Assembly (NCBI GenBank): GCA_016946835.1
Contig: JACVTC010000154.1
Span: 380,001 to 401,486, forward strand
DNA: 21,486 nt
Reading direction: 5' to 3'
DNA from: Neocallimastix lanati (nom. inval.)
Taxonomy: Eukaryota > Neocallimastigomycota > Neocallimastigomycetes > Neocallimastigales > Neocallimastigaceae
The notes under the pieces were generated by a model. That model was given only the letters and a program-made list of their open reading frames with translations. It made no database searches and was not told the origin of the DNA. The translations under genes were made by a program, and so were the position numbers. Positions 9,054 to 20,792 of this stretch are shown here, piece by piece (positions within the stretch are counted from its first letter, which is position 1; every line of letters starts with the position of its first letter).

Positions 9054-10437
9054 ATTCCTTATATAAGAGAATACAAAATAAATCTCATTCTGCCAAACAA
9101 AGCAAAAATTAGGATTACTAAAATAGGAACATTATCAGGATATATCAATAATAAACCTTTTGAAATAGAAGATGTATTATATTCCAGGGAACTCAACAAG
9201 AATCTCATTTCGTATAGTATTTTAAGGAAAACAGGTTATCTAGCTGATTATATACTTATTGATGACGACATATATTTTAGACTCGCCAATAAAAACCAGA
9301 ATTTATTATGTATCGCAAAAGAAAATGATGCAAACATATGCAATATCATTGTGTCTAAAACATGGAATATAAACAAAGACCAAAATGTTTACAATCTTGA
9401 GCTAGATGACTAATCCGAAAAGATATGGCATATAAGACTATGTCATTTTTATAACAATAACTTAAGAAAATATCTTGAAGGACACAATATTAAGAAAAGT
9501 AATTGTATTGACTGTAAATCTTCAAAATTAAAAAAGGCTCCATTAAATAAATCTACCTCCCACGCTTCAAGACCTTTAGAATTAATTCACTCAGACGTAT
9601 TAGGACTCCTTAAATTATCAAGAAATAATTATAAATATGTAATTACCTTTCTGGATGATTATAGTAGGAAAAGTTGGATTTATTTGATGAAGAAGATATC
9701 TGAGGTCACAGATATTTTCACTCATTTCGTTAAAATGGTCTCCAATGAACAGAATTTAACTGTTGTTAAGATTCAATCAGATAATAGAAAAGAATATACA
9801 TCTAATAAATTTGTAACATTTTGTTCAGAAAATGGTATTCAAAGAAGACTTATTGTTCCAAGTAACCCCCAGAGTAATGGTAGAGCTGAAAAACTTAATG
9901 GTACCTTGGAGAATGCAGTGAAAGTAATGTTAAGCTAAGCAAAACTTAGTAAAAATTTTTGGGAAAATGCAATTAAAACAGCTAATTATATTTATAATAT
10001 AACTCCAAGAAGTTCTATTGACTTTAAAATCCCTGATGAACTTTATTACAAAAAACCTGTGAATATAGATAAATTAAGAGTCTTTGGTTGTAAAGCTTAC
10101 TATTATATAGATCCAAATTTAAAAGTAAACAAATTTCATTCAAACTCAAAACCAAGTATATTTTTGGGTTATGATACAAATGCAAATGGATATATTATTA
10201 TGGATTATGAAACATTAAAAACTCACGTAGTTCGAGAAGCTGTTTTTGAAGAATAAATTCCAGGAAACTTCAATTTAATAAATAAAAAACCTTATGACGA
10301 AGAATATAATCTACCTTCTTTGCATACTAACGATGATATAGATGATTATGAAGATATAAATATTGAAGATAAAGAAACATTTGATGATAATCCAAAGTCA
10401 CACATAATTATTAATCCTATATTATTTACTCAGTAAA
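9054..10437 (+). pseudogene. Element A integrase region, broken
   Basis: A single frame holds the whole region, interrupted by TAA at 9411-9413, 9936-9938, 10254-10256 and about 10434-10436. Order: KIRITKIGTLSGYINN and NKNLISYSILRKTGY (pre-integrase), then the zinc-binding HHCC part (WHIRLCH...CIDC, about 9426-9520). The catalytic core follows, with IHSDVLG (first Asp), KIQSDNRKEY (second Asp) and SNGRAEKLNGTLE (Glu). The usual Gly after the second Asp-Asn is Arg. Next come FWENAIKTANYIYN and the conserved LRVFGCKAYYYIDP...FLGYDTNANGY segment at 10074-10200. The stops fall within conserved sequence, so the gene is dead, although the three acidic residues remain. Confidence 0.85.
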
Positions 10438-11727
10438 CTTATGCCAATATAAATTATAATGAAGACCATAACTCCCACAACACCAATAATAAAAAAAAGA
10501 AAAATAGAAAAAGTTAAAAATAATGATAAAAATATGTCCAACACTAATACAACAGTTGAAAATACGAGTAATACGGATAATAAATTAAACAATACAGATA
10601 ACATAATGAATAATACCAATAATGCATTTAATAACAAACATGACACGTCGAATAATATAAACAACACGAAAAACTACACAAAAAATAATTTTGATGATAA
10701 GAGCAATAGAAAAATTTTATTTGAGAATAATAATAATTTTATTAAAGATTTAAATATTGATGAAGATAAACAAAAATATGAAAATACTATGATAGATACT
10801 TATAATGAAGATAAAATTATTAATAGTAATAATTCTAATCAGGAATACATGAAGAATAATAGAATGAAAATAACGATATAGATAAAATAAACAAAGCTGC
10901 GAACAAAAATATTCAATATTATAAAAATAAAATAAGAGAATCAAATTATAATATTTATAAATTAATGAATGGATTAAATGATGTAATCCAAAATAATAAT
11001 TATATTAAAAAATTAATAACATACCTTTCAGTGTACAAGAGGTAAACAAGAAATATAACAATAATAAATCCAATAATAACATTAAATTACTTTCCTATTA
11101 GGATAATCAAGATAATAATGTTAAAATATTGAATAAATTTCAAAATAATCCTGATAAGCATGAACCTCCAAATAATTCAAAGGTATATGATGTAAGCCCA
11201 AATCAAAATTCAAATATTAATCCTGTTAACAAAATTTCGAGTGAAGTAAGCAAAGAAATTCCTGCAGTTTTAATTGAAAACAATAATAATTCAAATGAAA
11301 ATCCTGAAAATCCTGAAATCCTGAATAATAAAGACCTAGATTTAAATAAAAATAAATCAAAAAATAAAAATAAAATTTAATTGTTAGTAAAAAATAAAAA
11401 AAATGAGGATTTAAATTTTAAAAAGAAAGAAGAAAAAGATAATAAAACTAAAGTTAAGATTTAAAAAATAAAAAATATAAAATTACAAACTCGAAAAAAA
11501 ATTATATTAATGAAAAATTTTCAATTATTAAAAAAAAATCAAAAAAATTAAATAATTTTAATAAATTTAATTTTACCAAAAATAAAGTTATCGATAATAA
11601 AGATAAAAAATAGCATACGAAAAATTTTAATGAAAAATTTGATGAAAATCTGATTAAAGCTAATACTAGCTGTAATAATAATGTCAATAATGATCAAAAA
11701 TTAATAATTAGAGTTAAAAGACCAGGT
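10438..11727 (+). pseudogene. Element A expanded Asn/Lys-rich linker
   Basis: About 1.3 kb between integrase and reverse transcriptase encodes low-complexity Asn, Asp, Lys and Thr sequence in shifting frames: 10459-10881 in one frame (NTNTTVENTSNTDNK...) and 11129-11380 in another (KDLDLNKNKSKNKNKI). AAT/AAC and AAA/GAT runs dominate. The linker is roughly twice as long as the corresponding part of element C. Expansion of AAT-type triplets could explain both the length and part of the frame changes. Confidence 0.7.
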
Positions 11728-12791
11728 ATGCCACTTGAAAACAATAAACATAAAATTCAGAAAATGGAGGAAATATCCAATATCACAAATAATAATCCAA
11801 AAAACTATTATGAAGCTATTACTTATGAAGAGAATGATAAATGGATTAAACTTATATCTACCGAGTTGCAGAATTTAAAGGAAAATAATACAATGACCAT
11901 AGTATCAGAGCTACCAGAAGAAATTAAACCATTTAGTCCTAGATGGGTATTTACGAAGAAATATGATAGAAATAATAATTTAGAAAAATACAAAGCAAGA
12001 TTAGTTGTAAAAGGATATAATCAAATTGAAGGAGTCGATTATGAATTAACTTTTTCTCCAACACTACCAGTAGAAAGTTTAAGATTAACAATAGCATTAG
12101 CTTCTTTATTTAATTGGGACATTCAACAGTTAGATGTGAAAGGTGCATATCTCAATGCCAAATTACATAATGATATTTATATGAAACTACAGGAAAGACA
12201 TGAAAATTATAATGAAGGTTTTTTGTAAATTAAATAAGGCACTATATAGATTGAAACAGGCTGGTCGAGAATGGAACCAAACAATTAGTAAATTTTTGAT
12301 CAAGAAAGGACTATATCAATTAAGAAGTGAACAATGCTTATTCGTTAAGTGGGATAATAAAAACAATGTAATATGCTTAGTAGCTTTATATGTCGATGAT
12401 ATGTTAATAACAGGTATTAAAGAAGAAATTTTTAATATTATTAATATTATTAAGAACATTTTTAAAATATCCAAGTGCGAATATATAAATCATATTTTAG
12501 GATTAAATGTTAGAAAAAATAAATTTGGATATACAATCTCTCAAGAAAACTATATTGAAAACATTTTAAAGAAATTTAATATTAAAGAAAATGAAAAAGC
12601 TTCTACTCCATGTACTGGTGATGACATCATACTAATTAATAAAACACCTTTTGATAAGACTATTTACCAGAGTGTAGTTGGTTGTTTAATACATGTATCT
12701 AACTCAACAAGGCTTGATATAGTTTTCTCTGTTAGTAAGGCATCAAGAAAAAATTCAAATCCAACAATATCAGATAGGAACAAGGTAGTCA
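11728..12791 (+). pseudogene. Element A reverse transcriptase, two frameshifts
   Basis: The first part (to about 12223) reads AITYEENDKWIKLISTELQN, SPRWVFTKKYDR, KARLVVKGYNQIEGVDYE and WDIQQLDVKGAYLNAKL, including the first catalytic Asp. The frame changes at a T6 run (12219-12224) and continues CKLNKALYRLKQAGREWN, then the active-site ALYVDDMLITG (YVDD) and ILGLNVRKNKFGY. It then passes SVVGCLIHVSNSTRLDIVF to KASRKNSNPTISD. A second frame change lies at 12785-12798, caused by a direct 7-bp duplication (GTAGTCA twice). All core motifs survive, so the damage is recent relative to element B. Confidence 0.85.
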
Positions 12792-13308
12792 GTAGTCAGC
12801 ATTCTTAAGTATTTAAATCAAACTAAGAATTATTACATTTCATACAAAAACAAAGGAGAATAAATTGATTATACAGATTCCGATTTTGCTAGAGATTTAA
12901 CAAATAACAAATCCACTTCATGAAATATTTTTTCTTAGCCTCAGGACCAAGAACAATCAGTAACAAGATCTACTGCAGAAGCAAAAAATATTGCTCTTTC
13001 TGAAGCTGTATCAAATGGTTTATGGATTAAAAATATGTTAAATGAAATGTTTAAAAAGAAATTTGTAATAAATTTAAATGGAGACAACAATGCATCTTTA
13101 TTTGCTGCTGAAAATTATGCTATTAGCAAAAAACTTAGACATTTAAGAGTTAGCTATCACTACTTTAAAGAAAATATTGAAAGAAGTAATTTTACATTAC
13201 ATTAAATCTGAAGAAAATTTTGTAGATATTTTAGCAAAAGATGTTAATAAAAATAAAATAACTAATTTTTCAAACAAAGTTTTTGATAATACTTTGTTTA
13301 GGGGGGAA
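12792..13308 (+). pseudogene. Element A RNase H and polypurine tract
   Basis: After the frame change the reading is ILKYLNQTKNYYISYKNKGE, stop, DYTDSDFARDLTNNKSTS, stop. It resumes with TRSTAEAKNIALSEAVSNGL, LNGDNNASLFAAEN, KLRHLRVSYHYFKE and, one frame later, YIKSEENFVDILAK. These match element C's RNase H segments STAESEYYSLNECALKCMW, IRIDNKAAIYNSEN, SRHISLRYHKVRE and YIKSENNLADGLTK one by one. Stops lie at about 12862, 12919 and 12934. The polypurine tract AGGGGGGAA (13300-13308) ends directly before TG. Confidence 0.85.
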
Positions 13309-14593: not shown

Positions 14594-14598
14594 TAATT
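14594..14598. repeat. Left target site duplication of element C (TAATT)
   Basis: TAATT precedes the 5' LTR and is matched by TAATT at 20788-20792 right after the 3' LTR. A 5-bp duplication is usual for copia integrases. Confidence 0.9.
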
Positions 14599-14879
14599 TG
14601 TTAGAAATTAAGTTTAATATTCCACAAATCTTAATATAATTAATTTAATAATAACTTAATTTTATTATATTTTATAGGATAAAAATAATTTAATAATAAA
14701 TGTGATTTAATATTAATATTTAATATTAGAAAATAAATAAGTGAATAGAATAAAGTTTTAAAGGATTAGGAGATAAATATAAATTTAATGAATGAAAAAT
14801 AATAAAAAATAAATAATGTTGAAAAGTGTAAAAAATTAATTAATATATATTAATAAATAAAGTGATTATTAAAACAACA
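14599..14879 (+). repeat. 5' LTR of element C (281 bp)
   Basis: It runs TGTTAGAAATTAAG...AAAACAACA, with ends TGTT/AACA. It matches 20511-20787 over its whole length apart from four extra bases (ATTAATTAATAT versus ATTAATAT) at about 14857. TATA-like and AATAAA-like strings are abundant, but in this base composition they cannot be assigned as promoter or polyadenylation signals. Confidence 0.95.
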
Positions 14880-14899
14880 GATTAAGAGTCTCAAGCGCT
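14880..14899 (+). promoter_or_regulatory. Primer binding site complementary to the tRNA-Lys(CUU) anticodon arm
   Basis: Immediately after the 5' LTR the sequence is GATTAAGAGTCTCAAGCGCT. Its reverse complement contains CTCTTAA, the anticodon loop of tRNA-Lys(CUU), preceded by a stem TGAGA and GCGC as in a D-stem 3' strand, and followed by TC, which pairs with the last two stem bases. The primer would thus be the 5' half of the tRNA ending near position 39-40, the arrangement known for Drosophila copia with initiator tRNA-Met. No TGG (acceptor-end complement) is present. The site can also fold into a small hairpin (TCAAG/CTTGA). Confidence 0.7.
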
Positions 14900-15077
14900 C
14901 TTGATTATTAGATAGTTATATATAAATTATTTATTAAATTAGTGAAGTGTTAAAATAAAAAAAAAAAAAAAAAGATATTATAAATAAATAAAAATATCAC
15001 TTAATAAAATAAAGTTAAAGTGAAGTAATTTTTTATAATATTACTAGATTGAAGTTAAGTCAAATTAACGAACTAAA
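14900..15077 (+). other. Untranslated leader of element C
   Basis: This is AT-rich sequence between the primer binding site and the gag ATG, with a 17-nt A run at 14957-14973. Packaging signals of such elements usually lie here, but none can be recognised. Confidence 0.6.
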
Positions 15078-16097
15078 ATGAACAACGAAAGGAACTCTAC
15101 AAAGGATATTTTGGATAACTCTAATTTCAAGTTATGGAAACAAGAATTCTACCTTTTGTTAAAGGGAAAGAAATTAGAGGAGTACATTTTAAAAGAAAAA
15201 ATTAAAAAAATTCCCGAAAATAAACTAAGTAAAGAACAGAAAAAGAGATTAACTTTAGTAGATGGTACCACTGACACTTACTACGAAGAAAGTGTCACAG
15301 AAGATATGACTCAGGAAGATTCGTTGGTGAAAGAATATTTAATAAATAGTATATCTAAGGAGTTGGCAGAAAAATTCGATTTTATAACATTAACTGCCTA
15401 TGAAATATACAAGTTAATATCAAGTTTGAACGTGAATGATGACAATGACTTGATAGAAGAAATTAAAAACTCATTAGAAAAAGAAAAATATACTCCAGGA
15501 AAGGATGCATCTCTATCTATTTTTATTTCGAATATGAAAACAAAGTTTAGGGAACTGAATGTCTTGAAAGCGTCACCATCAGAACAAGAGAAGATAGATT
15601 ATTTATATAATAGCATACCTGATGATCTTGCTTTAAGATCAAATGCTATCAATTTCGAAGGAAATTTTGATGAGTTCTCGGAATTACTTATCAAAACAAA
15701 TCAAAGACTTATAAAACTTACTGAAAGAAGATTAAAAAGCAGTCTCAATAATAATCAATCTAACAGTTCTGATAATTTACAAGGTGTAAATGAAGATTTA
15801 TCAAAAAATATTAATACATATCCTAATGGTGCGAAAAATAACGAAAATAACTTTGAATCAAATTTTAATAAAGTACACAAAAATAATAATCACAAATATA
15901 ATAAAAGAAATTATAATAATAAGAATTATCAATATAATCACAGAAAACAAGATAAAAGTGAGGTAGAATGCTGGAATTGTGGAAAGAAAGGCCATTATGC
16001 ATCTGAATGTAGAAATAAAAATAACAAAAATAATTATAGGAAATTCAATAATAAAGAAGTAAATAAGGGGAGGCATTACATTAAACACAGAAGTTAA
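15078..16097 (+). CDS. gag: Element C Gag (capsid/nucleocapsid)
   Basis: An intact 339-residue frame. Residues 1-225 are a helical charged copia-type capsid domain (FKLWKQEFYLLLKG near the start, then SLSIFISNMKTKFRELNVLK). A Asn/Lys-rich basic stretch follows (about 230-295), then one zinc knuckle C298-x2-C-x4-H-x4-C311 (CWNCGKKGHYASEC), and a basic tail. It would form the virus-like particle and bind the element RNA. The ATG (context CTAAAATGA) is the first one after the leader. The stop at 16095-16097 lies inside the pol frame, which is open from 16063 in the +1 frame, so Gag-Pol probably needs a translational frameshift. Confidence 0.9.
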   Translation: MNNERNSTKDILDNSNFKLWKQEFYLLLKGKKLEEYILKEKIKKIPENKLSKEQKKRLTLVDGTTDTYYEESVTEDMTQEDSLVKEYLINSISKELAEKFDFITLTAYEIYKLISSLNVNDDNDLIEEIKNSLEKEKYTPGKDASLSIFISNMKTKFRELNVLKASPSEQEKIDYLYNSIPDDLALRSNAINFEGNFDEFSELLIKTNQRLIKLTERRLKSSLNNNQSNSSDNLQGVNEDLSKNINTYPNGAKNNENNFESNFNKVHKNNNHKYNKRNYNNKNYQYNHRKQDKSEVECWNCGKKGHYASECRNKNNKNNYRKFNNKEVNKGRHYIKHRS

Positions 16098-17290
16098 GAA
16101 GGAATATAAAGACGAACATATGAACCAATTTTTTGAAGACTATAATGATTCATACTTTGAATCAAATAGTAATTCCTCAATACTTCCCTTCAATAATAAA
16201 GATTATTTTATCTATAATTTAAATATAAAAGAAAAAAGCATAAACGAAAATAATAAAACTAATGTTAAAATCTTTCCATGGACTTTGGATTCTGGTACTA
16301 CTTATCATATGACTGGTAATTTAGATCTTTTGGAAAATAAAAAATCTTTCAAGAAGAAAATTTTCTTTGCAAATGGAGATTTTATTAACTCGAAGTATAT
16401 CGGTGAATTTTGTGGATATATTAATGATAATAAAATCACATTAAAAAATGTTCTATTTGTCCCAGAATTTAAAAGAAATCTAATGTCAGTTGATTGTTTA
16501 ACTGACAATCATTTTAAAATTATATTTTTTAATAATGATAACAAGAACCACGTCTCCATTTATAATAAAAACAATAATAAAGTATGTACTGTATGTTCAA
16601 ATAATACTAAGACGTATACTATTTGGACATCAAGGGAGAAAATTACATTTCCAAGTAACAATGGGATATGTAATTACATTGCTGACACAGATAGTGAAAG
16701 TCTTTACCTGTGGCATAAACGTCTTGGCCATTTCAATATTAATCATCTCAGAAACATTCTAACGAAAATAAATACTAAGAAACAATGTGAAATATGTGCT
16801 AAGACCAAATTAAAAAATTTTCCATTCAAACATAACGACAATAGAGCCAGTGAGCCTTTCGAAAGGATACATATGGATACTGTATCTATAAATGATGAAT
16901 CTCTTTATGGCAATAAGTGTTTCTTATCTATTTTAGATGATTATTCTAGATTCGGTTGGATAATTTTTCTTAAATCAAAAAGTGAGGTGTTCAACAAATT
17001 TATTTTATGGTATAATAAAATTAAAAATACTTTCAACACTACCATCAAATTTCTACGAACGGATAATGGAACTGAATTTACCAATAATTATTTTGTAGAT
17101 TTTTGTAACAATAATGGTATTTGTCATGAATTTACCATTCCTTATTCACCTCAACAAAACGGCAGAATTGAAAGGCTCCACGGTACCTTAATTCCAAATG
17201 CTCGTGCTATTTTAGAAGAGGCTAAACTTAACCATGTTTTTTGGGAGGATGCTATTGACACTATTAATTATATTCACAATCGTATCCCTC
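16063..17290 (+). CDS. pol: Element C pol, 5' part: protease and integrase (interrupted)
   Basis: It is open in the +1 frame from 16063, with the first ATG at 16120. The aspartic protease active site is LDSGTTYHMTG (Asp-Ser-Gly at 16288-16296). The pre-integrase zinc-binding motif follows: WHKRLGH at about 16711 and CEIC at about 16787. The integrase core has Asp in HMDTV (16876), Asp in RTDNGTEF (17062) and Glu in NGRIERLHGT (17170), with the D-x35-E spacing exact. The segment ends at NRIP, where the nested insertion begins; a stop (TAA 17293-17295) comes from the insert. The protein continues at 18075. Joined, pol would be about 1216 residues. Protease processes Gag-Pol; integrase inserts the cDNA. 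Confidence 0.9.
16065..16074 (+). promoter_or_regulatory. Candidate +1 ribosomal frameshift site (gag to pol)
   Basis: In the 35-nt gag/pol overlap the gag codons are AAG GGG AGG CAT. GGG AGG C resembles the Ty1 heptamer CTT AGG C in its AGG C half, where a slow AGG codon in the A site lets the P-site tRNA slip +1. The pol frame is exactly +1 to gag. The GGGGAGGC string is the only G-rich spot near the end of gag. The mechanism is inferred; internal initiation at ATG 16120 is an alternative. Confidence 0.45.
17286..17290. repeat. Left target duplication of the nested insert (CCCTC)
   Basis: CCCTC at 17286-17290 is repeated at 18070-18074, on both sides of the TG...CA insert. A GC-rich 5-mer is very unlikely by chance in this composition. 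Confidence 0.9.
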
Positions 17291-17533
17291 TGTAAAGATA
17301 TGATCAATATCTTTAGTACATTAATTAATTTATTTTGTACATTAAATTATTTAATGTAATTCACGTTTACAAAATAATGCTAATGCATTAAATTATGTAA
17401 AATATATTAATTTATGAAATTAATTGATTTATGAAAATTAATAATAAATTTATATTTCATATAATATATAAATTTAAAAATATAAAATTAATTTTTAAAT
17501 AACCTAAAATTTAGTAATAAAATATATTAATAA

Positions 17534-17613
17534 TTTTAGTTTAGTTTAATTTTAGTTTAGTTTAATTTTAGTTTAGTTTAATTTTAGTTTAGTTTAATTT
17601 TAGTTTAGTTTAA
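17534..17613. repeat. Five perfect 16-bp tandem units in the nested insert
   Basis: The unit TTTTAGTTTAGTTTAA occurs five times without a mismatch, itself built of TTTAG and TTTAA subunits. Perfect identity implies recent expansion or homogenisation. Confidence 0.95.
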
Positions 17614-17692
17614 TAATCATAAAAATTAAATAGTAATATATAATTAATAGTATTAATAATAAAAGAATAATAAATAAATAATAAATAAGAAC

Positions 17693-17724
17693 TTATTCAA
17701 TTTGAGTCAAAACAAATTGAATAA
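17693..17724. repeat. 12-bp perfect inverted repeat in the nested insert
   Basis: TTATTCAATTTG, an 8-nt loop, then CAAATTGAATAA. It could form an RNA hairpin in a transcript of the insert. A second perfect 10-bp pair lies at 17894-17903 and 17911-17920 (GTTATTAACT/AGTTAATAAC). Confidence 0.8.
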
Positions 17725-18069
17725 AAAGCTTATTGAATTAGTTTTAGTTTTTTATAACTTTATTTAATTTTAGATTAGTTTTTGTTTATTTTATATTGAA
17801 TATATATTTAAATAAATAGAAATAGTATATTATAATATAATTAAGAAAAAATATAAATACATGTAAAATTATTCTATTAAAGAAAATGTAGTTGTTATTA
17901 ACTATTTTGCAGTTAATAACTAATAAAAAGAATTTTTATAATAAAGTGATTAATAAAAGAATTTTTTTAAAAAATAAATTTCATTTGAGTATTGTTATTG
18001 ATAGTGTTGTTTTTTTTTTTTTTTTTTTTTTTTCGTAATTGTAATCTGCTCCATAAGGAACATTTTACA

Positions 18070-18074
18070 CCCTC
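18070..18074. repeat. Right target duplication of the nested insert (CCCTC)
   Basis: This is the second copy of the 5-bp duplication, directly after the ACA end of the insert. The pol reading resumes here in frame. Confidence 0.9.
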
Positions 18075-20497
18075 ATAATGGTATTAACAATTCTATTCCT
18101 TATGAATTGTTATATGACAAAAAAGTTGACTTTTCGAATTTTCGTGTTTTTGGTTGCAAAGTTTTCTTTTACGTTCCAAAGCAATTTCGTAAAAAGCTTT
18201 TAAATTCAGCTCTCCCTGGTATCTTTCTTGGCTATGATTCTAACCCTTCTGCTTATAGGATTTATGATGTTAATAATAATAAAATTATTCTTTCTCGATC
18301 TGTTGTCTTCTTTGAAAACATTCCTGTCAATTGTGCATCTCCAAAATCTCTTCCTGAATTTATAAATTTTACTCCTTATTATGAAATCGAGGGAGAAGAT
18401 TTACTTGTTAACGAAGATGGTAATAATGATATCAAAGATTTTAATAACATTAATAATGATAACAATGATAATGATAATGCTTATGATAATAATAAAGATA
18501 ATTCAAATAACAATATTAATCAAAATACGAATTCAACTAATTCTAATGCAACTATAAGTGACAATAATAATAATAATAATAGTTATAAACAAGTTAATAA
18601 TGGCGTTGAAAACGAAAATGTAGATTACTTTACAAATGACAATGAAAATAATAACAATGAAAATAATAACAATGAAAATAAATACAATGAAAATAATAAC
18701 AAAGATAATAAGTTTAATAAAATTAATAATATCAATGATAATAATCAAAATAATATACATGAAATCAATAACATTATTGATAAACAGTTGAATTATTCAA
18801 CAAACGATACAAATAACATCATTAAAAGTAATACTGATATTTCAAATTTCAATAAAAATGAAAATAACTATGTCCCTAAAAGAAAATTTATAGATGAAAC
18901 AGAAAAATTGTATAAAAAATTCAAAATAACAAACAACCTGAATTTAAGCAAGTTTGAAGAAAATCAAGAATTAGATCCGCCACTAAGCTTTAAAGATATA
19001 TTCGGAAGACAGGATGAAAAAGAATGGCTGAAAGCAGTAGAAGAAGAATTAAATAATATGAAGAATAAAAACGTATATACAATTGTTTCAAATATTCCTA
19101 ATGAAAAAAATTTAATTTCTAGTAGATGGGTTTTTAGCTACAAAAGAGATGATAGAGGAAATATAATAAAATATAAAGCAAGATTGGTGGCTCGTGGATT
19201 TTCTCAAGTTTATGGAGTAGATTATGAAGAAACTTTTTCGCCCACGTTAAAGCAAGATTCACTGAGAATCATTACTAATCTTTCAACTTTTTTCAATTTC
19301 GAAATGTACCAATTGGATATTAAAGCAGCATATCTTAATGCTGAAGTTGATGAAGAATTATATATGGAAATTCCTGACGGTTTTGAAAATAGAGGTTTTT
19401 GGAAATTAAACAAAGCAATTTATGGACTAAAACAAGCCGGAAGGATGTGGAATAATAAAATAAATAATACATTGTTAAACTTAAATTTTGTTAGATCTAA
19501 AAGTGAACCATGCGTCTATTATAGAAAGGATAATAAAAATAATATCTCATGTATTTTAGCTATATATGTTGACGATATTATAATATCAGGAAAGAAAAAT
19601 GAAATAAATTATATTAAAACAGAAATTAAAAAAATATTTGACCTTAGTGACATTGGACCTGTGGATTTCATAATAGGAATAAAATTTATCAAAACAAAAT
19701 ACGGATACATAATGCATCAATTACAATACTTAAATAAAATTTTGGAAAATTTCGAAATTGGAAAATATAACCAAATATCAAGTTTAACCTTTATTCAAAA
19801 TGAAGAATTAAGAAAAAGAAAATTTAACTCAAAAAAATATATGCAAGCTGTGGGTAGTTTACTTTATTTAGCAATGGGTACGAGACCGGATATTTTATTC
19901 GCTACTAGTAAGGCGTCAAGAAAAAATAAGGATCCAACATATGAAGATTGGATAAATGTTTTAAAAATATTTAGATATTTAAAGGGAACAAAATATTATG
20001 GATTAAGGTTTACTGATAATATAAATTTAAATGTTTATGTAGATGCAGACTTAGGTGGTGATGAAGAAACTAAAAGGTCCACTACCGGATTCATAATTAA
20101 TATGGGAAATACACCTATTTCATGGTATTCAAAGCTTCAACATTGTGTATCGATATCAACTGCAGAAAGTGAATACTATAGTCTAAATGAATGTGCTTTG
20201 AAATGTATGTGGTTAAAAAATTTCTTAGAAGAATTAAATATAAATACAGGGACAATTAAAATTAGAATAGACAATAAGGCTGCAATATACAATAGTGAGA
20301 ATGAAACAATAAATATAAAATCAAGACATATAAGCTTAAGATATCATAAGGTAAGAGAATTAGTAAGCGAAAAGAAAATTAAATTAGAATATATAAAATC
20401 TGAAAATAATTTAGCGGACGGCCTAACAAAATATCTCAATGGACCTTTACTTAAGAAATTTAGAAAAATAATGCTTTGTAAATTAATAGGAAATTAA
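18075..20497 (+). CDS. pol: Element C pol, 3' part: integrase tail, reverse transcriptase, RNase H
   Basis: It continues integrase with NNSIPYELLYDKKVDFSNFR, VFGCKVFFY and FLGYDSNPSAYRIYD. An Asn/Asp-rich linker covers about 18420-18860. Reverse transcriptase follows: EWLKAVEEELNNMKNKN, SSRWVFSYKRD, KARLVARGFSQVYGVDYEE, YQLDIKAAYLNAEV with the first catalytic Asp, KLNKAIYGLKQAGRMWN, and the active-site AIYVDDIIISG (YVDD, about 19564). TRPDILFATSKASRK leads into RNase H, with acidic residues in VYVDADLGGD, STAESEY, RIDNKAAI and NNLADGLTK. The frame is unbroken to TAA 20495-20497. It has no start of its own, because it is the downstream half of pol cut by the nested insert. It copies element RNA into cDNA inside the particle. 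All catalytic residues are intact. Confidence 0.95.
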
Positions 20498-20510
20498 ACT
20501 TACGAGGGAG
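20498..20510 (+). promoter_or_regulatory. Polypurine tract of element C
   Basis: CGAGGGAG lies directly before the TG of the 3' LTR and just after the pol stop codon, the normal plus-strand priming position. Elements A and B have the comparable AGGGGGGAA and GAAGGGGAA. Confidence 0.8.
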
Positions 20511-20787
20511 TGTTAGAAATTAAGTTTAATATTCCACAAATCTTAATATAATTAATTTAATAATAACTTAATTTTATTATATTTTATAGGATAAAAATAA
20601 TTTAATAATAAATGTGATTTAATATTAATATTTAATATTAGAAAATAAATAAGTGAATAGAATAAAGTTTTAAAGGATTAGGAGATAAATATAAATTTAA
20701 TGAATGAAAAATAATAAAAAATAAATAATGTTGAAAAGTGTAAAAAATTAATATATATTAATAAATAAAGTGATTATTAAAACAACA
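20511..20787 (+). repeat. 3' LTR of element C (277 bp)
   Basis: Identical to the 5' LTR except for a missing 4-bp unit. It ends AACAACA and is followed by the TAATT duplication. Confidence 0.95.
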
Positions 20788-20792
20788 TAATT
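20788..20792. repeat. Right target site duplication of element C (TAATT)
   Basis: TAATT matches 14594-14598. The empty site before insertion would have joined the sequence left of 14599 directly to that right of 20792. Confidence 0.9.

Follow-up and report, generated by a model that had tools for sequence, protein, structure and literature searches.

A Copia-type retrotransposon of Neocallimastix lanati with a probable tRNA-Lys(CUU) half-tRNA primer

The first 14 bases past the 5′ LTR of a Ty1/copia element in the gut fungus Neocallimastix lanati (GATTAAGAGTCTCA, 14880-14893) exactly complement positions 27-40 of the host tRNA-Lys(CUU), where tRNA position numbers follow our own assignment from the cloverleaf. 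Very probably, judging from sequence comparison, these bases constitute the primer-binding site of the element, pairing with the anticodon arm of tRNA-Lys(CUU) such that a half tRNA primes reverse transcription. Priming from a cut half is the probable mode because the 14-base site matches the middle of the tRNA and not its tip.

The element and its probable primer-binding site

The element lies in a window of 21,486 nt (C62:380001-401486), the whole stretch of DNA analysed; L-numbers denote other loci of the same 199-Mb, 762-contig genome. It spans 14594-20792, both TAATT copies included (Table 1), and is a Ty1/copia LTR retrotransposon (Pseudoviridae), as seen from the Copia order of its domains (zf-CCHC, Pol_BBD, gag_pre-integrs, rve, SH3, RVT_2), its paired LTRs (98.6% identical over 281 aligned positions) and its short target-site duplication. 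The preliminary description had already called it a Copia element, and was right to do so. The copy is broken, since pol is interrupted at about 17296-18049. The interrupting stretch is AT-rich and ends, on the plus strand, in a long T run, and it might be an A-tailed retroposed insert lying on the minus strand. The gag frame and the +1 frame of pol have 35 bases in common (16063-16097), an arrangement also present in five of nine related loci checked (L001, L003, L005, L006 and L009, the gag of L006 containing a stop) and absent from L002, L008, L010 and L016. All six overlap-bearing elements, that of the window included, carry GGGAGGC inside the overlap, which recalls the +1 frameshift site of Ty1, CUU-AGG-C.

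Table 1 Features of the element, in window positions
Feature	Position	Strand	Basis
Target-site duplication, left copy TAATT	14594..14598	.	read from sequence and LTR alignment
5′ LTR, TGTTAG...AACA	14599..14879	+	281-base alignment to 3′ LTR, 98.6%
Putative primer-binding site, exact complement of tRNA-Lys(CUU) 27-40	14880..14893	+	host tRNA comparison
Remaining 6 bases of the site as first described; 4/6 match tRNA 21-26 ungapped; also part of hairpin	14894..14899	+	
Predicted RNA hairpin, 10 pairs, 5′ arm = primer-binding site	14880..14906	+	folding vs shuffles
gag reading frame, stop to stop	15069..16097	+	ORFs and domain search
CCHC zinc knuckle in gag	near 15966-16013	+	domain search
pol first part, +1 frame: Pol_BBD, gag_pre-integrs, integrase core	16063..17295	+	ORFs and domains
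Non-coding stretch splitting pol, ends approximate	17296..18049	.	gap between frames
pol remainder: SH3-like domain, RVT_2 reverse transcriptase	18050..20497	+	ORFs and domains
GAGGGAG purine run preceding 3′ LTR, candidate polypurine tract	20504..20510	+	read from sequence
3′ LTR	20511..20787	+	LTR alignment
Target-site duplication, right copy TAATT	20788..20792	.	read from sequence and LTR alignment

The window, which is AT-rich, also holds a Mannosyl_trans3 gene and the remains of another Copia-type element (9414-13308, plus strand), with an integrase core, a split RVT_2 and, around position 13300, a purine run (AGGGGGGAA). The 5′ end of this decayed element seems to be missing, and the 14-base site was not seen near it.

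The 5′ LTR ends in ...AACA at 14879, and the sequence from 14880 reads GATTAAGAGTCTCAAGCGCT. A host tRNA-Lys(CUU) gene was located at L030:1467-1540 on the minus strand (GCCCGGCTAGCTCAATCGGTAGAGCGTGAGACTCTTAATCTCAAGG...); the copies in the examined loci agree (n = 5), and a 35-base core of the gene occurs at 73 exact places in the genome. That the bases beside the 5′ LTR complement the anticodon arm of this tRNA had been proposed before any host comparison, and the 14 exact matches to the host gene bear it out. A run of about 19 matches ending at tRNA position 39 or 40 had also been predicted: the match does end at 40, but the unbroken run is 14 bases long, and 14880-14899 as a whole agrees at 18 of 20 positions ungapped, with mismatches at tRNA 26 and 23. 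The complement had further been extended into the D-stem. There, 4 of the 6 bases of 14894-14899 match, but they may equally form a hairpin arm, and because the hairpin explains them too, we dropped them as proof.

No other host tRNA comes close. Within the 61 bases that follow the LTR, none of them matches exactly over more than 8, against 14 for tRNA-Lys(CUU), in a host set of 20 anticodon names with the initiator tRNA-Met (iMet) tested by pattern only. Classical priming by the 3′ end of a full tRNA was rejected, as the 61 bases downstream of the LTR contain no TGG, the best 3′ end among 32 unique strings from 97 genes matches 10 of 18 bases near the site, and the usual iMet 3′-end primer site occurs at 0 places in the genome. 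These comparisons uphold the preliminary description on three counts: tRNA-Lys(CUU) fits best by far, the complement is to its anticodon arm and not its acceptor end, and the better 3′ end nearby that might have overturned the proposal is not found among the 32 strings.

Recurrence of the site across the genome

The 14-mer occurs at at least 1448 exact places outside tRNA-Lys genes, which were removed from the count via the base two before the site, while the reversed pattern occurs at 0. The count is a lower bound, as the pattern requires non-G at three positions and takes the exact 14-mer only, with variants uncounted. The 27-40 segments of four other tRNAs were counted by genome-wide pattern as controls: those of iMet, Arg(UCU) and Lys(UUU) gave 0 places each, and that of Ile(AAU) gave 1, preceded by AC. 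Among the matches listed (the first 100 of 1448, from contigs C1-C14), 98 of 100 sites follow an A (57 CA, 25 TA and 16 AA) and 2 are not preceded by A; the 100 sites comprise 76 unique 35-mers. The 40 sites in the examined loci fall into 22 clusters by their last 30 LTR bases, a rough grouping in which L007 stands separate only through its masked LTR, and the site is found after many unlike LTR ends. Outside this genome, an 18-mer made of AACA and the site was found in 2 stretches of an 84,980-species prokaryote set and in 2 among 2.9 million viral contigs; 0 of these 4 repeat the 40 bases before the 18-mer, and we judged all of them to be chance occurrences.

Eight further site-bearing stretches (L064-L071) were fetched. 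Copia-type domains were identified in the frames examined of six (L065 and L067-L071), and hence, with the window element, in 7/7 coding elements examined. RVT_2 was found in five of these seven (the window element, L065, L069, L070 and L071) and in none of the frames examined of L067 and L068, which for L068 means one of three frames. Their integrase cores are 29-59% identical, and in L065 the gag, integrase and reverse-transcriptase domains all lie in a single open frame of 1876 codons. The window element, L064, L066, L067 and L071 each have an LTR pair with its end at the site; within the 6.4 kb fetched, no second LTR-end copy was found for L065, L068 or L070, and that of L069 amounts to 21 bases only. 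L066 and L067 have moved recently, because their LTRs are identical (over 217 and 234 bases, respectively). Matching 5-bp flanks surround the window element (TAATT), L067 (ATTTA) and L071 (ATATT), and a flank match in L064 and L066 says little because their flanks are ATT repeats.

Two of these elements are short (L064:214-2381 and L066:193-2728), carrying the same site and LTRs that are 99% and 100% identical, respectively, and the interval between the LTRs holds no frame reaching 200 codons; they are probably non-autonomous copies mobilised by Copia elements. ATTATT repeats follow the right LTR end in L064, L066 and L069 (3/9 elements), and these elements may often insert into or next to ATT arrays.

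The genome also contains dense arrays of diverse tRNA genes (13 in 6.0 kb at L061, 14 in 10.0 kb at L062 and 12 in 5.0 kb at L063). Several short contigs (C188, C251, C252, C266, C350, C353 and others) carry tRNA-Lys(CUU) genes spaced 5-6 kb apart whose strand alternates from one to the next, a pattern resembling a head-to-head repetition of large inverted units. A first look at the CBM_10/dockerin family gave 1440 candidates in the genome, and all of the 150 scored exceed the cut-off (150/150); together with the AT-rich sequence and the Mannosyl_trans3 gene, this is in keeping with an anaerobic gut fungus (Neocallimastigomycota).

Edge of the match, hairpin and alternative explanations

In sequence, the tRNA match is one that stops sharply at position 26. 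If pairing beyond tRNA 27 were important, a C would be expected next after the 14-mer, but C is rare there: opposite tRNA 26, a C stands at 67 of the 1448 places and, among the matches listed, in 3 of 76 unique contexts, with C least frequent in this column among the 12 downstream. G26 is N2,N2-dimethylated in many eukaryotic tRNAs. In HIV-1, according to the available portion of PMC13191261, the end of the 18-base site is set by m1A58, at which plus-strand copying of the tRNA halts, and we infer that G26 would be the counterpart of m1A58 as a copying stop. The same portion lists ms2t6A37 as a copying stop; tRNA base 37, within the 14, would have to be read through, and a bulky 37 could stop copying earlier.

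We propose that tRNA-Lys(CUU) would be cut between positions 40 and 41, yielding a 40-nt 5′ half that would pair with the 14-base site. Reverse transcriptase would then extend C40 into U5, copying the last A of the LTR first, and the plus-strand copy of the attached primer would reach only position 27, where the modified G26 would block it. Every cycle would copy precisely these 14 bases anew from the tRNA, which under this proposal is why they stay identical while LTRs and genes diverge. In many families, a hairpin arm would also have to be opened by the tRNA.

The hairpin predicted for the window element (14880-14906) has a folding energy of -8.3 kcal/mol (z -2.51), a stability reached by 6 of 200 shuffled sequences. 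Among the matches listed, 54 of 76 unique contexts, taken as the 12 downstream bases, form >=5 pairs with the site, and 42 of 76 fold better than shuffles at P<=0.05 (mean z -2.21) with G-U pairs and short stems allowed; these contexts are interrelated, were drawn from the first 100 of 1448 places, and were compared with shuffles preserving base counts only. The corresponding exact-match statistic is weak, with 3/22 clusters at P<0.05. CTC is present in 43 of the 76 contexts, against 9.5 expected, and ACCGA, the complement of D-loop 16-20, in 10/76 as a raw count, both among the matches listed. The downstream arm often resembles the tRNA's own anticodon strand (GACTCTTAA), but it is variable and absent in some families (e.g. 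L069 and one L025 site). We read the hairpin as a gate on the primer site, to be opened by the tRNA. The full scenario, in which the Copia superfamily here would be locked to the tRNA-Lys(CUU) 5′ half, kept by 26-bounded rewriting and gated at the site by a tRNA-mimicking hairpin arm, is put forward tentatively, as one possible account of these patterns.

The same hairpin could instead point to self-priming, in which the transcript's own RNA would pair with the 14-mer and be cut, either through its 5′ end or through the hairpin arm. In Tf1-type self-priming, as described in the accessible part of PMC7175516, the site is a complement of the 5′ end of the RNA that carries it. The pairing of the site with bases directly downstream in many contexts would suit such a scheme, as would an arm that ends at the required primer end, and some LTRs match the site's complement over 7-8 bases (7 in the window element and in L017, 8 in L068), each exceeding its shuffles; for the window element the 7 compare with 5.2 in shuffled sequence, the LTR being the sequence searched. 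Across the 22 clusters, however, there is no average signal, LTR matches to the complement of the site having a mean maximum length of 5.68 against 5.49 when shuffled, and the hairpin arm varies and is sometimes missing. Self-priming would also leave the exact match to a host tRNA unexplained, and we consider it unlikely.

Still less credence attaches to the idea that the 14-mer merely docks the anticodon of an intact tRNA-Lys, for packaging or regulation, with the 3′ end of another tRNA priming elsewhere. For retroviral primers, the available portion of PMC13191261 discusses contacts that the anticodon loop makes beyond the primer site, but here the match sits exactly at the LTR end, the required primer end, and the missing TGG, the 10/18 best 3′ end and the absence of any iMet 3′-end site argue against a second primer. 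Chance or tRNA-gene-derived sequence beside the LTR has a negligible probability despite the many tRNA genes arrayed in this genome, as 1448 exact places against 0 for the reversed pattern exclude a chance match, the 18-mer has only four stretches in the prokaryote and viral sets, with no repeated 40-base flank, and the flanks of the listed sites resemble LTR ends and not tRNA.

Comparison with known half-tRNA primers

Priming by a half of tRNA-Lys(CUU), the reading we prefer, has close relatives among known elements. Hemivirus is set apart by the ICTV via the use of a short tRNA segment (PMC8515867). In the available parts of the literature, copia and Ty5 are described as primed by the anticodon region of a truncated initiator tRNA-Met (PMC10886601, PMC5371799), and the Ty5 start from an internal cut is attributed to RNase P (PMC5371799). 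The elements described here resemble copia and Ty5 in belonging to the Copia superfamily and in their probable use of an anticodon-region primer from a truncated tRNA, but differ in the tRNA itself, which is initiator Met there and tRNA-Lys(CUU) here. The copia primer, a 5′ fragment of 39 nt, has its 3′ end at canonical position 40, and Candida Tca2 may use a half tRNA-Arg. By sequence, one hemivirus-type feature, a complement of an internal tRNA segment that ends in the anticodon stem, placed directly at the LTR, is present at 14880-14893, and another, use of initiator tRNA-Met, appears to be absent, as the host iMet differs and the half-iMet site occurs at 0 places.

Fungal counterparts are known from rust-fungus Copia elements, for which the accessible text reports sites complementary to anticodon loops, with Tyr, Ile, Asp/Asn and iMet as primers (PMC10886601). 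These and the related Helenus elements share with ours the anticodon-loop sites, short non-autonomous relatives with the same sites and 5-bp target-site duplications, but the same text gives several primers in one lineage (PMC10886601), whereas here Lys(CUU) stands alone among five segments tried. In plants, half-tRNA sites (Osser, Bryco, Gymco-II and Bianca) are, in the part of PMC6317226 available, confined to Ty1/copia and use half Met or Ile, in about 2% of elements, unlike the probable Lys(CUU) primer here. The retroviral 18-base site offers a likeness of another kind, in that its length is set by a stop in tRNA copying, as set out in the available portion of PMC13191261. Its edge lies at m1A58, while the edge here lies between 27 and 26, with dimethyl-G26 as the inferred cause.

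The preliminary description had foreseen a primer choice different from that of copia, and Lys(CUU) is indeed absent among the half-tRNA primers that we found named (Met, Ile, Tyr and Asp/Asn). In the open-access literature, a scope outside which most subscription papers lie, we found no half tRNA-Lys(CUU) primer, and no open-access account of these elements in gut fungi was found. With tRNA-Lys(CUU), the short list of named half-tRNA primers gains a member, and in this genome its exact sites number at least 1448. That the match ends so sharply at tRNA 26 suggests a testable length rule for half-tRNA sites, comparable to the base-58 rule for retroviral 18-base sites, and the high copy number would make this fungus well suited for finding the cleavage that generates half-tRNA primers, a long-open step. 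Set beside copia, Ty5 and their fungal and plant relatives, tRNA-Lys(CUU) is a new primer choice within the known half-tRNA mechanism.
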